A DNA stretch of 43,484 nucleotides. It comes from a virus. The DNA lies in the IMG/VR virus record IMGVR_UViG_3300046507_000882, positions 1 through 43,484 of that record; one strand, 5' to 3'. A model generated the notes under the pieces. It ran no database searches, was not told where the DNA came from, and saw nothing but the letters and a program-made list of their open reading frames with translations. The first letter of the stretch is position 1. Each line of letters begins with the position of its first letter. The position numbers and the translations under genes were made by a program. Of this stretch, positions 31,276 through 37,105 are shown piece by piece.

Positions 31276-32556
31276 CTAAGTGCACTTCACAACCCACAAC
31301 TGATCAAGCCTTGTAGTAAAGCTCTGACTCATCATCTCCCGCCGCATCCCCCAATCAGGCGCTGACGGCACACTGCCGGCGCGCAGCGTTCCGCTACCCC
31401 ATCGTTGATTGATCTCATCCAAAACCCCCATAACTTTTTCGGCGGCTAGCGGTTGTGATTGCGCGAACAGATCATCCGTAAACTCTCCGGGCTGTCGCAG
31501 GTCCATCAGCAAAACTTCAGCTTTGCTGTATCTGAAGCCCGGCCGAAACAGACGGTTGATTGCATCAGTCGCGGCCTTGGTCAGCAGCCGCACATCATTC
31601 GTAGGGTAAGGCAGTTCAACCAGCGCCCCATTGGCGTACTTGGCCTCCTCCGGACTGAACATACCGGTTCGAATGCTGACGCGGATCTTCTTACACAACG
31701 AATCCTGCGCTCTCAATTTTTCCGCAGCCCGGTGTACGTAGGTGGCCACCGCTTCCTTGATCGGCTCTATGGTGGTCAGCCTCTTCCCAAACATTCGGCT
31801 GCTGCAGATCTCCTGTTTGACGGGTTCGGCTTCGGTGAGCTCCAGACACGACGTCCCGGTCAGTTCACGAGCAGTCTTCTCGATCACTACGCTGAACTTC
31901 TGCCGTAGCGTCCAGGGGTCGGCTTTCGCCAGGTCCATTGCTGTTCTGATCTGCATGCTTTCGAAATGGGCTTTCATTCGGCGCCCAACTCCCCACACTT
32001 CACCGACGTCTGTATTTCGCAACACCCAGTCGCGCTTGACGGGGTCGCAGATATCCACCACTCCGCCGGTATGCGCTTGCAAGCGCTTTGCTGTGTGGTT
32101 GGCAAGTTTGGCTAGGGTCTTGGTGGGCGCAATACCGACGCCAACAGGGATGCCTGTTCCTTTGTAGACGGCGGCGCGAATGGTTCGGCCGAAGGTGGTC
32201 AGGTCACCCGGAATGCCGGTGAGATCGGCGAAGGCTTCATCAATGCTGTACACCTCCACCGCCGGAACCATGGACTCGATGATTGTCATCACGCGTTCGC
32301 TCATGTCGCCGTACAACGCGTAGTTGCTGCTGAAGACCTGCACGCCGTGTTGGCGCAACACGTCTTTGATTTGAAAGTACGGCGCGCCCATTTTCACAAA
32401 GGGTTTTGCATCGTAGCTGCGGGCGATGACGCAGCCATCGTTGTTGCTCAAAACAACGATCGGAGTCTTGGCAAGGTCAGGGCGAAAGACTCGCTCACAG
32501 CTTGCGTAGAAGCTGTTGCAGTCAATGAGGGCAAAGACCCGCTCACGACCTGCCAT
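31276..32556 (-). CDS. umuC: DNA polymerase V catalytic subunit UmuC
   Basis: A 426-residue Y-family polymerase. FALIDCNSFYASCERVF (8-24) carries the first metal-binding Asp and the steric-gate region. YSIDEAFADLTG holds the catalytic Asp-Glu pair. A helix-hairpin-helix region and little-finger domain follow (WGVGRRMKAHFESM). It carries out error-prone synthesis across damaged DNA when joined by cleaved UmuD. It overlaps umuD by 14 bases. Full length for the family. Prophage-borne umuDC is common in Pseudomonas. Confidence 0.95.
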   Translation of the reverse strand: MAGRERVFALIDCNSFYASCERVFRPDLAKTPIVVLSNNDGCVIARSYDAKPFVKMGAPYFQIKDVLRQHGVQVFSSNYALYGDMSERVMTIIESMVPAVEVYSIDEAFADLTGIPGDLTTFGRTIRAAVYKGTGIPVGVGIAPTKTLAKLANHTAKRLQAHTGGVVDICDPVKRDWVLRNTDVGEVWGVGRRMKAHFESMQIRTAMDLAKADPWTLRQKFSVVIEKTARELTGTSCLELTEAEPVKQEICSSRMFGKRLTTIEPIKEAVATYVHRAAEKLRAQDSLCKKIRVSIRTGMFSPEEAKYANGALVELPYPTNDVRLLTKAATDAINRLFRPGFRYSKAEVLLMDLRQPGEFTDDLFAQSQPLAAEKVMGVLDEINQRWGSGTLRAGSVPSAPDWGMRREMMSQSFTTRLDQLWVVKCT

Positions 32557-32974
32557 GGTCGCGCACGCTATAGGTCACTACGCCCCAAATCACCAATTCA
32601 TCACCCTCCATTACGTAACGCGGCGGGTATTTGCTATTTGCTGAGAGCAGCATGACAACGTTATCGCGACGGTGCAGTCGCTTGCAGATGGGTTCGGCGT
32701 TAAGACCGGCAATGACGATATCGCCGTGCTCGGCATTCAGGCTCCGATTGACGACGACCAGGTCCCCACAAAAAATCCCTTCGCCTTCCATGCTGTCGCC
32801 CTCGATTTTGGCCAGGTATACATGGGGAGCGCGGATCTCAAAAATCTCGTCCAATGAGATGTGCTTCTCGATGTGATCGGCCGCCGGAGAAGGAAAACCC
32901 GCCGGAATTTGAAAGGAATAGAGCGGGAGCTTTTCGCCCCCCTCCGACAGCGGGCCGAGGATGGTGACACTCAT
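32543..32974 (-). CDS. umuD: UmuD-type SOS mutagenesis protein
   Basis: A 143-residue S24 peptidase-like protein. I use ATG 32974; the ATG at 33010 lies inside the LexA box. Ser61 (EGDSMEGEG) and Lys98 (PICKRL) form the catalytic pair. The self-cleavage site is Ala25-Gly26 (IPAGFPSPAAD). RecA-stimulated cleavage makes UmuD', which activates UmuC. It is the first gene of the umuDC operon, controlled by the LexA box at 32999-33014. Confidence 0.94.
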   Translation of the reverse strand: MSVTILGPLSEGGEKLPLYSFQIPAGFPSPAADHIEKHISLDEIFEIRAPHVYLAKIEGDSMEGEGIFCGDLVVVNRSLNAEHGDIVIAGLNAEPICKRLHRRDNVVMLLSANSKYPPRYVMEGDELVIWGVVTYSVRDHGRS

Positions 32975-32998
32975 GATGCGAACCTGATGAGGAATTGA

Positions 32999-33014
32999 CT
33001 GTATGCACATACAG
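32999..33014. promoter_or_regulatory. LexA (SOS) box between umuDC and SRAP gene
   Basis: CTGTATGCACATACAG is a perfect 16-base palindrome matching the LexA consensus CTGTAT-N4-ATACAG. It lies 24 bases before the umuD start and 60 bases before the divergent SRAP gene. It should repress umuDC and may also repress the SRAP gene until DNA damage. Confidence 0.93.
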
Positions 33015-33074
33015 TAAACTCGTGGAGCTTCACGCGGTCAATGAGGGATGTAGGACATTTCGACGGGTGACACC

Positions 33075-33761
33075 ATGTGCGGACGTTATTCTATTTACGA
33101 GTCGATGGATCACTACCTGAAAGAACTGTCTCCTCAGCAGTTGGTCATCAATGGGTACGATCTCTGGGCCATCGACCGCTACAACGTAGCTCCCACTACT
33201 CGAGTCGAGATTATTCGATCAGTGGATGCTAGTTTAAGCGTCGACAAGGTGCGCTGGGAGTGGTCACCGTTTTGGGCGAAGGGTAAGCGACCAGACCCGA
33301 TCAACGCGCGTGTGGAAACATTAACTACTGGCAAGTTTTTCAAACAGCTTTGGCCAAACGGCCGAGTGATCGCACCTGCCAATGGTTGGTTTGAATGGGT
33401 GAAAGATCCGGATGATCCGAAGAAGACGCAGCCCTACTTCATTCGTTTGAAAAGCCAGGCGCCGATGTTTTTTGGCGCACTAGCTCAGGTGACACCAGGG
33501 CTGGAACCGAACGACGAGGACGGGTACGTCATCATCACCGCAGCCAGCGATCAGGGCATGGTCGACATTCATGATCGCCGGCCATTGGTATTGGTGCCCG
33601 CTGCGGCTCGGGAATGGTTAGAACCGGGACTGGATCCACAAAGGGCTGCGGAAATAGCTATGACAATGTGCAGACCTACGGAAGACTTTGAATGGTTTGC
33701 TGTGGACCGAGCAGTTGGGAATGTACGCAATCAGGGACCACGGTTAATTCTTCCTATCTGA
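33075..33761 (+). CDS. SRAP (YedK/HMCES) abasic-site protection protein
   Basis: A 228-residue SRAP protein. Cys2 (MCGRY) is the residue that links to abasic sites after removal of Met. RYNVAPTTRVEII, NARVETLT, ANGWFEW and DIHDRRPLVL hold the remaining active-site residues, including the Glu and His of the family. It shields abasic sites in single-stranded DNA by forming a stable crosslink. It diverges from umuDC across one LexA box, which suggests SOS induction and a joint role in damage tolerance. Confidence 0.94.
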   Translation: MCGRYSIYESMDHYLKELSPQQLVINGYDLWAIDRYNVAPTTRVEIIRSVDASLSVDKVRWEWSPFWAKGKRPDPINARVETLTTGKFFKQLWPNGRVIAPANGWFEWVKDPDDPKKTQPYFIRLKSQAPMFFGALAQVTPGLEPNDEDGYVIITAASDQGMVDIHDRRPLVLVPAAAREWLEPGLDPQRAAEIAMTMCRPTEDFEWFAVDRAVGNVRNQGPRLILPI

Positions 33762-34812: not shown

Positions 34813-35145
34813 TCAGGCGTGCGCCTCACGATCAAGGACATCAGCCACCCATTGGTTGATGCTTTTGTGAGCTAGCTGTGCCTTCACGGCGACTGTCGCA
34901 TGGAGTGCCGGAGCCAGGCGCAGGCTGAGATTGCCCGAGTAGGGTTTTTGGGGGGCGCGACCGAGCTTGGCGCAGGTTTCAAGGTAGTCAGTTACGGCCT
35001 CTTGGAAAGCTTTGCGCAGTTCTGCGACCGACTCACCGTGGAAGCCAACGACATCTTTGATGCCCGCGATGTGGCCGACAAACAGGCCGTCTTCATCACT
35101 GTAATCAATTCGGGCGGCATAGCCGTTGTAGTTCATTACGTTCAC
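34813..35145 (-). CDS. hicB: HicB antitoxin
   Basis: A 110-residue HicB. The N-terminal partial RNase-H-like fold has YNGYAARIDYSDEDGLFVGH and a GFHGESVAELRKAFQEAVTD helix. The C-terminal ribbon-helix-helix-type segment (LSLRLAPALHATVAVKAQLA, NQWVADVLDREA) binds DNA. It neutralises HicA and represses the operon. It overlaps hicA by four bases, downstream of it as usual. Confidence 0.95.
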   Translation of the reverse strand: MNVMNYNGYAARIDYSDEDGLFVGHIAGIKDVVGFHGESVAELRKAFQEAVTDYLETCAKLGRAPQKPYSGNLSLRLAPALHATVAVKAQLAHKSINQWVADVLDREAHA

Positions 35146-35396
35146 GGGATGACTCCTGCTTGCTCAAGGAAAGCCCGCGCGTCACGCACTTGATAGGGCT
35201 TTGCTTCTTTGTCTGGGTGAGGTCGGTGAAAGGTGGCGACCACACCGTTCAATTCAAAACGCACTCGAGAGCCGTTGCCTTCGATGGTCCGAGCGCCCGC
35301 CGCACCGAAGAGGGCTTCGATTCGCGCCCATTCCAGCGTGTTCGGAACGGGCTTGGAGAATACGGCTTTGAGCGTACTGAGCTGTTTATTGTTCAT
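35142..35396 (-). CDS. hicA: HicA toxin (mRNA interferase)
   Basis: An 84-residue HicA. The double-stranded-RNA-binding-like fold contains EALFGAAGARTIEGNGSRVR, then VVATFHRPHPDKEAKPYQVR, the variant of the family where GSR replaces the GSH of classical HicA. It cuts mRNA unless bound by HicB. It is the first gene of the pair. The dyad just upstream is the likely operator. Confidence 0.93.
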   Translation of the reverse strand: MNNKQLSTLKAVFSKPVPNTLEWARIEALFGAAGARTIEGNGSRVRFELNGVVATFHRPHPDKEAKPYQVRDARAFLEQAGVIP

Positions 35397-35415
35397 GGTA
35401 TTATATCATGATACC
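35397..35415. promoter_or_regulatory. Putative hicAB operator
   Basis: GGTATTATATCATGATACC begins one base upstream of the hicA start. GGTAT and ATACC are exact complements around an AT-rich centre. Such dyads at the toxin start are the usual targets of HicB autorepression. Confidence 0.6.
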
Positions 35416-35468
35416 GCACAAAAATTTTGTACCCGCAGTTCGACCGCAGCTACGTGAAGCAAGCCTTC

Positions 35469-35517
35469 GATACAAAAAACGCCACTACCCTTATCGGGGA
35501 GTGGCGTTTTTTGTATC
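35469..35517. terminator. Strong bidirectional terminator
   Basis: A 22-bp stem (35469-35490 with 35496-35517) has one mismatch and a 5-base loop. Runs of A on the left arm and T on the right arm give the U tract in both directions. It separates the hicAB region from the leader and DUF3077 unit. The stretch 35518-35770 after it holds no gene I can support. Confidence 0.85.
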
Positions 35518-35775
35518 AAACCCACCGCCTGTTTGGCACGGCCATCAGAATATCGAGTGACTCAGGTCGAGGTTGTAGGCAAAATCCGCGAGTTGCGTAA
35601 GGAAGCACGACTTCTGTGCTCTCAGCAGGCAAGTGCCTTGCCGACCTTCAATTCGCCGGAATATTCTCCAGACATCGCTGCACATTCAGCGATCGGGCTT
35701 GGAAACCCGTCGAGTCACGCAACAGCGCTCCCCTCATAAGCGTCAGCGTACTTTTACGACTGTAGGTTTATGTTA

Positions 35776-35882
35776 TGGCGGCTGTGCGTGGGACGTCTTT
35801 AGGGCGTGCCGGTCTCCTTGACTCCCGGTTTCCAACCTGCGTACAGCTGCCACCCATTCGCTTGGAAACGACAGTGGCAGCT
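35776..35882 (+). ncRNA. Structured leader with two mutually exclusive hairpins
   Basis: TGGCGGCTGTGCGTGGG (35776-35792) can pair over all 17 bases, using G-U pairs, with CCTGCGTACAGCTGCCA (35836-35852). The loop holds two smaller hairpins, giving a three-way junction. AGCTGCCAC (35845-35853), within the same right arm, instead pairs perfectly with GTGGCAGCT (35874-35882). The two folds exclude each other. The second ends 8 bases before the AAGGAG of a 31-residue peptide gene. This is the layout of a cis-acting translational or attenuation switch. G-U pairs in the long stem suggest RNA-level conservation. I recall similar leaders before DUF3077 genes in Pseudomonas, but cannot verify that here. 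Confidence 0.6.
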
Positions 35883-35904
35883 CCTCATGTCAAGGAGTTA
35901 GACC

Positions 35905-36000
35905 ATGTACAGCGCTACCCTCATATATGCCCCGCCTCAGCCTCAACGCTTAATGTCATTCTCTTCCCAATTGCCCTCCATTAATGGAGGTGCCAAATGA
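35905..36000 (+). CDS. 31-residue peptide overlapping the DUF3077 gene
   Basis: A short frame with a strong ribosome site (AAGGAG, 8 bases before ATG 35905): MYSATLIYAPPQPQRLMSFS, followed by eleven residues ending GGAK. The TGA overlaps the ATG of the DUF3077 gene (ATGA at 35997), so the pair is translationally coupled. It could be a real small protein or a leader peptide for coupling. It is too short for automatic calling. Confidence 0.65.
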   Translation: MYSATLIYAPPQPQRLMSFSSQLPSINGGAK

Positions 36001-36290
36001 TCGAAGAAGCCGAAGAAAAAACCATCGGTCACACCCACTTCATCTATTGCGGGGACAAGCCACTGTTTCAGGTTTGTGCCGGCGTTCCGTTCAAAGACGC
36101 ATTGACGCAGGCATCAGATCTGCTGTGCCTGACCAAATCACTGGCAGAAGACGCCGCTTTCGCGAAGGAAACTGACCGATATGCCTGGGGCGCACACTTC
36201 CTGACGGTGTTCGCAAAGGCGGTGGTCGATGATGTCCTCAAAGCCATGTCACCACGCCCTGGCCCGGTGACTCTGAAATCCGCAAAATAG
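35997..36290 (+). CDS. DUF3077 protein
   Basis: A 97-residue DUF3077 protein, a Pseudomonas family of small helical proteins. THFIYCGDKPLFQVCAGVPF and KDALTQASDLLCLTKSLAED are the family core, and WGAHFLTVFAKAVVDDVLKA the C-terminal helix. Function unknown; many genomes carry several copies. It is coupled to the upstream peptide and preceded by the structured leader. A terminator follows at 36365-36387. Confidence 0.88.
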   Translation: MIEEAEEKTIGHTHFIYCGDKPLFQVCAGVPFKDALTQASDLLCLTKSLAEDAAFAKETDRYAWGAHFLTVFAKAVVDDVLKAMSPRPGPVTLKSAK

Positions 36291-36364
36291 CGAGCGGAGC
36301 CTCTGCGTTTGAGTGCTTCGACGGTGGTTGGGCGTGCTTTTCGCGCCCTCCCCCGAGCATCAAA

Positions 36365-36387
36365 AAGCCCGACGCAGGGCCGGGCTT
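36365..36387. terminator. Intrinsic terminator after the DUF3077 gene
   Basis: AAGCCCG (36365-36371) pairs with CGGGCTT (36381-36387) around a 9-base loop. The A run before it (36362-36366) gives a U tract on the minus strand, so it can also end the repressor transcript coming from the right. Confidence 0.65.
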
Positions 36388-36453
36388 CCTTTGGGCTTTC
36401 CATTTCTATCCAATTAATCACAAAAGTTATGGGTCGCTCGAACTGAACAAGTA

Positions 36454-36567
36454 TCACGGTTTGTGGATAAGCGCCTGTGATATGCGCTGTATGTATCCAC
36501 GATCCGCTTCAGACATCGCTCTATACCATGTAAGAAGATTCCGCTCTTCTTGCGTTAACTCGGACAT
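36454..36567 (-). CDS. 37-residue small protein downstream of the repressor
   Basis: A minus-strand frame too short for routine calling: MSELTQEERNLLTWYRAMSE, then ADRGYIQRISQALIHKP. It looks like the small Pseudomonas proteins with an L-L-x-W-Y-R core followed by DRxYI. The frame stays open up to a TTG at 36618, adding 17 charged residues; ATG 36567 has no strong ribosome site, so the start is uncertain. It lies downstream of the repressor on the same strand and ends before the terminator at 36365-36387. Confidence 0.6.
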   Translation of the reverse strand: MSELTQEERNLLTWYRAMSEADRGYIQRISQALIHKP

Positions 36568-36720
36568 TTCGCACTTTGGTTTATCCGTGCGTATGTTCTC
36601 TTTTTTGTCTTGATCCAAATGCCCACTACTCCATTAAGTGCATTGAGGGGCAACGTTACTCATGAGTGTGGAAAATCAAAACTGAAATCCGTCGTAACGA
36701 ATGTTTTAAATCTCGACGAG

Positions 36721-37095
36721 TTATTTCTTGGCAGCAGAAAGGTGGGTGACTTCGGCCATAGCGCCGACAATTCGATGCACAGCTTTTTGGTCATATTCAG
36801 ACAGCGTTCGAAGCTGTTGAATGAGTTGGTTTTCAGCAGCATCCAGCTCGTTGGCAGTTGGCGATAGACGTACACCGGTCAAGACGTAAAGGACGTCCGC
36901 ACCGGCTCTGGCCACGGCGATGAGGTAGGCAGAATCAGGATTACGCTCGCCTTTTTCATAGCTGCCCTGCGTGTTGCGAGTGATGCCGCCCTGCTGTGCA
37001 AAGGCATCTTGGTTAAGGCCCAGGCGCGTCCTTTCCTCGCGCAAGCGCTCACCTACTCCAACGTCCAAGTCTTCCTGAGATGCACAACTTTTCAA
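36721..37095 (-). CDS. XRE-family phage repressor (CI-like)
   Basis: A 124-residue protein. The N-terminal helix-turn-helix domain covers about 14-70 (ERLREERTRLGLNQDAFAQQ, then NTQGSYEKGERNPDSAYLIA). A short helical C-terminus replaces the S24 peptidase domain of lambda-type CI, so it is probably not cleaved by RecA. It faces the small Cro-like gene at 37162 across the promoter/operator at 37106-37133. This is the likely lysogeny switch. How SOS would induce the phage, if at all, is not evident. Confidence 0.88.
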   Translation of the reverse strand: MKSCASQEDLDVGVGERLREERTRLGLNQDAFAQQGGITRNTQGSYEKGERNPDSAYLIAVARAGADVLYVLTGVRLSPTANELDAAENQLIQQLRTLSEYDQKAVHRIVGAMAEVTHLSAAKK

Positions 37096-37105
37096 GCTTT
37101 CACCC

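Follow-up and report, generated by a model that had tools for sequence, protein, structure and literature searches.

The leader that precedes the DUF3077 gene in the window (the whole stretch of DNA analysed, 43,484 nucleotides of the IMG/VR virus record IMGVR_UViG_3300046507_000882) is best read, with a probability of roughly 0.87, as an antisense immunity module of the phage P1 immI type, carried by a temperate Pseudomonas phage and having DUF3077 as its effector. Sequence features support a C4 fold, a'/a2 pairing, b'/b2 pairing over the ribosome site, an upstream copy of the target and ATGA coupling of two reading frames, while we infer the antirepressor role of DUF3077 from its position by a helix-turn-helix gene and from a Bro-N protein in one sister cassette. 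The features are, in window coordinates:

35638-35667, + strand: probable sigma-70 promoter, -35 TTGCCG and -10 AATATT/TATTCT, matching a TTGNNN/TANNNT pair that recurs in relatives
35661-35713, + strand: c4-a1b1 upstream C4 target (RF03163), 50.6 bits, gathering threshold 46.7
35674-35756, + strand: IsrK-like short RNA region (RF01394, 31.1 bits), an a1 hairpin followed by a degenerate terminator
35699-35707, + strand: a1 site, TTGGAAACC, complementary to the a' side of C4 (35827-35835)
35771-35857, + strand: C4 antisense RNA (RF01695), full-length match, 71.5 bits, gathering threshold 45, E 4e-12
35776-35852, + strand: C4 stems from covariance model and covariation, namely P1 (35776-35792 with 35836-35852), hairpin P2 (35793-35807) and hairpin P3 (35808-35829)
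35814-35822, + strand: b', CTCCTTGAC, in the P3 loop, exact complement of b2
35828-35835, + strand: a', GTTTCCAA, after P3, exact complement of a2 and also complementary to a1
35845-35882, + strand: conserved second hairpin, C4 3' arm with spacer
35862-35869, + strand: a2 target, TTGGAAAC, complementary to a'
35889-35897, + strand: b2 target, GTCAAGGAG, complementary to b' and covering the leader ribosome-binding site AAGGAG (35892-35897)
35905-36000, + strand: leader ORF of 31 residues, equivalent of icd or orf45, with a 4-nt ATGA overlap with DUF3077
35997-36290, + strand: DUF3077 gene (PF11275, E 1.9e-27), in the antirepressor's position
36721-37095, - strand: helix-turn-helix gene, possible phage repressor (HTH_3, E 3e-8)

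C4 antisense RNA and its targets in the window

The three-stem C4 fold is backed by covariation in relatives, and the fold of the window copy is compatible with it. Among elements from 116 places, compared in two alignments (A3 and A4), 99% of stem cells are paired, and both partners vary in 12 out of 27 pairs in A3 and in 20 out of 27 in A4. None of 500 shuffles does as well, and with slid structures the paired share of cells is 33-43%. The covariation that the earlier note had proposed to look for in homologous leaders is, for the C4 stems, present. The two elements from which that note started are also there, the 17-bp stem being the C4 closing stem P1, made throughout of standard or G-U pairs, and the 9-bp perfect hairpin joining 35845-35853 to 35874-35882, that is, the C4 3' arm to the spacer between a2 and b2. 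Since both use 35845-35852, they are mutually exclusive in one molecule, as had been claimed. Of 93 distinct loci, 85 preserve the complementarity of the second hairpin, which, together with the covarying C4 stems, indicates that the paired structures are not due to chance. Positions 35776-35910 fold at -57.6 kcal/mol (z = -3.4 against dinucleotide shuffles), and for the full-length leader fold prediction favours a structure different from that of isolated C4.

Further complementarities of 8-9 nt lie in the same stretch, 35814-35822 with 35889-35897 and 35828-35835 with 35862-35869, and a fourth, 35699-35707 with 35827-35835, reaches the upstream site. Specificity is carried by three contacts that the first reading of the sequence had missed, b'/b2, a'/a2 and a'/a1. 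The cis-acting RNA switch proposed in that reading holds insofar as a conserved RNA regulator with alternative pairings and a coupled peptide is present, but its kind was mistaken, the regulator being a C4 antisense RNA with its targets; sensing of a ligand, a protein or ribosome movement finds no support. A riboswitch or ribosome-sensing attenuator, in which the hairpins would be states set by ligand, protein or translation, would accommodate the mutually exclusive folds, the conserved second hairpin and the preference of the full leader for a non-C4 fold. Nonetheless, the Rfam C4 model matches here at full length, and conservation tracks antisense/target matching that varies from locus to locus and includes the ribosome and upstream sites, not a constant pocket. 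With no Rfam aptamer family matched and no conserved leader peptide, both readings were set aside as highly improbable.

Upstream of C4, in the loci inspected, the -10 end of the TTGNNN/TANNNT pair usually lies 31-33 nt ahead of a1, and the mean best score of the pair is 6.6 out of 12 versus 4.6 for shuffled sequences (116 loci); a generic scan detected no promoter in the window. The b1 match of the window copy is short (GAGTCA, 6 nt), and its IsrK-like region scores below the gathering threshold of 50 for isrK. When longer loops are allowed, a hairpin followed by a T-run lies between a1/b1 and C4 in 66 of 116 relatives versus 0.85 expected; the same search finds none in the window copy, where the terminator is degenerate, and a strict short-loop search across relatives gave no clear excess. 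The order of a1/b1, terminator and C4 in relatives is the arrangement of an IsrK short RNA followed by C4; in Burkholderia cenocepacia, isrK and C4 are reported to belong to a single transcription unit (PMC4603805).

In the antisense immunity module proposed here, a single transcript starting near 35674 would carry a1/b1, C4, a2/b2, the leader ORF and DUF3077. By analogy with P1 and P7, RNase P would cut C4 out of this transcript, and C4 would then pair in trans with a2/b2, blocking leader translation and switching off the coupled DUF3077; the P1 precedent would add early termination to this repression. The mature 5' end is predicted near the GG at 35777, a GG at the stem edge being compatible with RNase P processing to a short trans-acting RNA and having a precedent as processing site in C4-like RNAs (PMC5320573). 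Repression may in turn be counteracted by a short a1/b1 RNA from upstream, as in Salmonella Gifsy-1, and the 9-bp hairpin might either lengthen the C4:target duplex or form in the uncut transcript. DUF3077 would antagonise the lysogenic repressor or otherwise favour lytic growth, in which case a resident C4 would confer superinfection immunity. Against this immunity module stand the degenerate a1/b1 terminator and short b1 of the window, the failure of DUF3077 to resemble any known antirepressor in sequence or fold, and the existence of some loci without leader or without C4.

A purely cis-acting version, in which the nascent transcript toggles between the C4 fold and C4-target pairing and no processed trans RNA takes part, appears quite unlikely. 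It draws on the facts that one transcript holds all complementary segments, that the hairpin between 3' arm and spacer is conserved, and that Gifsy-1 isrK-orf45 works by alternative cis structures; however, the stable C4 body and the GG at its 5' edge match the RNase P-processed C4 of P1/P7 and processed Acinetobacter RNAs (PMC5320573), and the loop-borne a' and b' correspond to a trans-antisense design.

Locus-specific matching of antisense and target

The pairing segments form codes that are matched within each locus. Over 67 loci with distinct a'/b' combinations, a' scores 17.6 with its own a2 versus 10.7 with those of other loci (z = 21.1), and b' scores 18.9 with its own b2 versus 11.9 (z = 21.3), the own-pair sum being reached by none of 20,000 permutations. 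Controls with swapped roles (a' with b2, b' with a2) or a reversed a' were null, with z from -0.7 to -0.1. Since relatedness within one lineage inflates z, single genomes were tested as well. P. fluorescens FW300-N2E3 has 25 C4s with 25 different a'/b' combinations, and for 22 of them the own target is the best of 25; a second Pseudomonas genome has 20 C4s with 20 combinations, the own target being best for 19 (z 12.7). Upstream a1/b1 sites also fit their own C4 better than the others do (z = 10.7 for a' plus b', 25 loci of one genome), while the third contact, the hairpin between 3' arm and spacer, is the least locus-specific, with an own-pair z of 2.7 in FW300-N2E3 and 6.3 over the 67 loci. 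The energy of long gapped C4-target duplexes was rejected as a specificity measure, being too blunt on account of bridging gaps (own target best in only 9 of 25); it was replaced by ungapped a'/b' scoring with permutations. This scoring was picked after the gapped result had been seen; its controls give zero signal, and the second genome replicated the outcome. As the codes are readable from sequence, cross-talk and phage-immunity groups become predictable and directly testable.

DUF3077, its phage and the chromosomal cassettes

The 31-residue peptide is coupled to DUF3077 by ATGA, as the earlier note had recognised, and leaders of 19-38 codons with the identical 4-nt overlap occur in 47 of the 50 loci having a gap; in 20 of 70 relatives the leader is absent and DUF3077 starts directly under the target. 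The leader peptide shows no sequence conservation and evolves near-neutrally, with DUF3077 having a dN/dS of 0.10-0.22 in the phage group; judged from these comparisons, purifying selection acts on DUF3077, not on the leader peptide. A DUF3077 model built from 46 sequences (pLDDT 86.5) predicts a two-helix hairpin plus two short strands, an earlier model from 11 sequences being poor. This fold gave no significant match among PDB and viral structures, neither sequence homology nor a fold match to Ant-type antirepressors was found, and a search for DUF3077 among annotated phages returned no match. DUF3077 (PF11275) and DUF6124 (PF19619) look distantly related (hhalign P 3.4e-4 over 66 columns, probability 38%).

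The window phage is contractile-tailed and temperate, with terminase, capsid, sheath, tape measure, Ogr, primase and integrase genes. The cassette keeps a fixed position near the helix-turn-helix gene, Ogr and primase in 10 viral contigs (L003 and L005-L013), and the fragment L004 holds DUF3077 and the genes after it. Comparison of window positions 35301-37100 with two of these contigs reveals a mosaic: relative to L003, DUF3077 and the helix-turn-helix gene are 95-100% identical (DUF3077 97%) and the C4/leader module 45-89%, while relative to L005 the C4 part is 96-100% identical and DUF3077 about 70-83%. As identities diverge in opposite parts, the specificity module appears to have been swapped separately from the gene. 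Directly 5' of the module lies a HicB/HicA toxin-antitoxin pair (34816-35393, - strand), and a UmuC-like polymerase, a UmuD-like S24 peptidase and a SRAP gene together make up a cargo block of SOS type at 31276-33758; UmuCD also adjoins the DUF3077 cassettes L016, L024 and L027. The IMG/VR contigs L014-L028, although classed as viral, share none of the window phage's early or replication genes, apart from UmuCD/SRAP in a few; they look like chromosomal cassettes.

The presence of C4 in Pseudomonas is already documented in Rfam and by Weinberg et al. 2010. A genome scan with a DUF3077 alignment yielded at least 102 loci, of which 80 were kept, all from Pseudomonas. By a simple pattern count C4 stands directly upstream of DUF3077 in at least 58 of these 80, and the RF01695 covariance model recovers a few more. 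The chromosomal loci lack the neighbour genes of the window phage, save that HicAB occurs at four of them and one has a weak integrase match; HicB lies near four chromosomal DUF3077 loci, with HicA also in two. RF01695 matches number 14, 27, 16, 38, 27, 33, 4 and 10 in eight genomes, and at least one C4 occurs in 185 of 200 Pseudomonas genomes (in this survey the scoring limited counts to 20 per genome), versus 5 of 113 other gammaproteobacteria (1-3 copies each).

In FW300-N2E3 a short gene follows each of the 25 C4s fetched (25 of 25) at about 50 nt, encoding DUF3077, DUF6124, unclassified relatives or, once, a Bro-N protein. Bro-N is a domain class present in phage antirepressors, and the cassette in question (L125, C1:1992000-1994400) has a 175-aa Bro-N protein as its target gene. 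Six close DUF6124 copies of this genome share 84-97% protein identity (dN/dS 0.05-0.13) and carry six different codes; nearly identical proteins with codes distinct within one genome suggest selection for switches that do not cross-talk.

Fourteen DUF3077 loci have no C4 body just 5' (L036, L039, L053, L055, L059, L063, L064, L067, L068, L078, L081, L083, L087 and L098); since most keep an a1-like and/or target-like leader, C4s encoded elsewhere in the genome might silence them in trans. Another cassette without C4, L148 (G005:C1:4125000-4128000), has an early in-frame stop in DUF3077; C4 could have been lost there by recombination between b1 and b2 (AGTAAACGAG), which are direct repeats. In Pseudomonas botevensis COW3 a cassette on a genome contig (L034) has a' and b' identical to those of the window phage, so that by their codes both are predicted to belong to the same C4 immunity group; it adjoins a HicAB pair 90-94% identical to that of the window.

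Such copies raise the question of whether the unit is toxin-antitoxin-like or a selfish addiction unit, with C4 as RNA antitoxin and DUF3077 or DUF6124 as harmful product, a reading that possibly applies above all to the chromosomal copies. The many chromosomal copies, their mutually distinct codes and the early stop in the C4-less L148 would fit it, but the window copy occupies a constant place in the phage, several C4-less chromosomal copies retain an intact DUF3077, and no matches to toxin families were obtained, so that we regard it as unlikely overall. Starting again from the phage immunity module, a tentative extension, less probable than not in our estimate, is that this device has given rise to a Pseudomonas-wide repertoire of C4 cassettes, up to dozens in a genome, with private two-part codes (a', b') and mostly with a DUF3077/DUF6124 protein under their control, in which code-matched residents could act as inherited antisense immunity; a resident cassette with a phage-matching code, such as the chromosomal L034, could silence the DUF3077 of the incoming phage. 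The cassettes may be linked to intergenic repeat families described in P. fluorescens (PMC2718517) and to Pit174, an sRNA of P. putida (PMC7324555).

Novelty and comparison with known systems

In the open-access literature searched (subscription papers outside scope), DUF3077 is named in passing by one paper and DUF6124 by none, nothing links C4 to DUF3077 or DUF6124, and no matched, diversified C4/target sets are described in Pseudomonas chromosomes. Thus, the module itself is of a known kind, while its link to DUF3077/DUF6124 and the diversified chromosomal repertoire are apparently unreported, as far as this literature goes. The uncharacterised family DUF3077 is thereby placed in a regulatory setting and given a role open to testing, P1-type antisense immunity would be extended to a new effector, and the Pseudomonas cassettes may rank among the largest matched antisense/target sets within single bacterial chromosomes.

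The closest likeness is to the immI operon of P1 and P7 (c4-icd-ant), where C4 serves in P1 to hold the antirepressor in check, in the order a1, b1, C4, a2, b2, short ORF and gene, in the location of b2 near the ribosome site, and in the loop-borne a' and b'. In the P1 record AF234172, a1 lies at 48255-48261, b1 at 48269-48276, c4 at 48343-48419, a2 at 48423-48429, b2 at 48452-48459 and icd at 48470-48691, with ant1 starting at 48688 and hence a 4-nt icd/ant1 overlap. After C4, a2 follows at 4 nt in P1 and at 5 nt in the window, b2 at 33 and 32 nt, respectively, and the ORF overlap is 4 nt in both. P1/P7 heteroimmunity resides in c4 and its targets (PMC12197685), and similarly the window and L003 share DUF3077 but differ in the C4/target module. 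On the contrary, the downstream gene of the window is DUF3077 instead of ant1/ant2, its leader has 31 aa of unconserved sequence as opposed to the 73 aa of icd, and its phage is contractile-tailed and integrating, with a cassette that has many chromosomal siblings.

Salmonella Gifsy-1 isrK-orf45-anrP, which shows AUGA coupling, required orf45 translation and a variable peptide (PMC4825925), shares with the window the upstream a1-type RNA, the AUGA overlap of a short ORF with the effector and the variability of the peptide. The model published for it is a cis structure of isrK and orf45 that IsrK opens in trans, and C4 is not named in that paper (PMC4825925); the window differs in having an isrK match that falls below threshold and a weak terminator. 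Finally, Acinetobacter baumannii Group 1 comprises many C4-like sRNAs, variable in a', within a single chromosome (PMC5320573). They are reported as sRNAs without matched downstream targets and ORFs, whereas the Pseudomonas cassettes have both.
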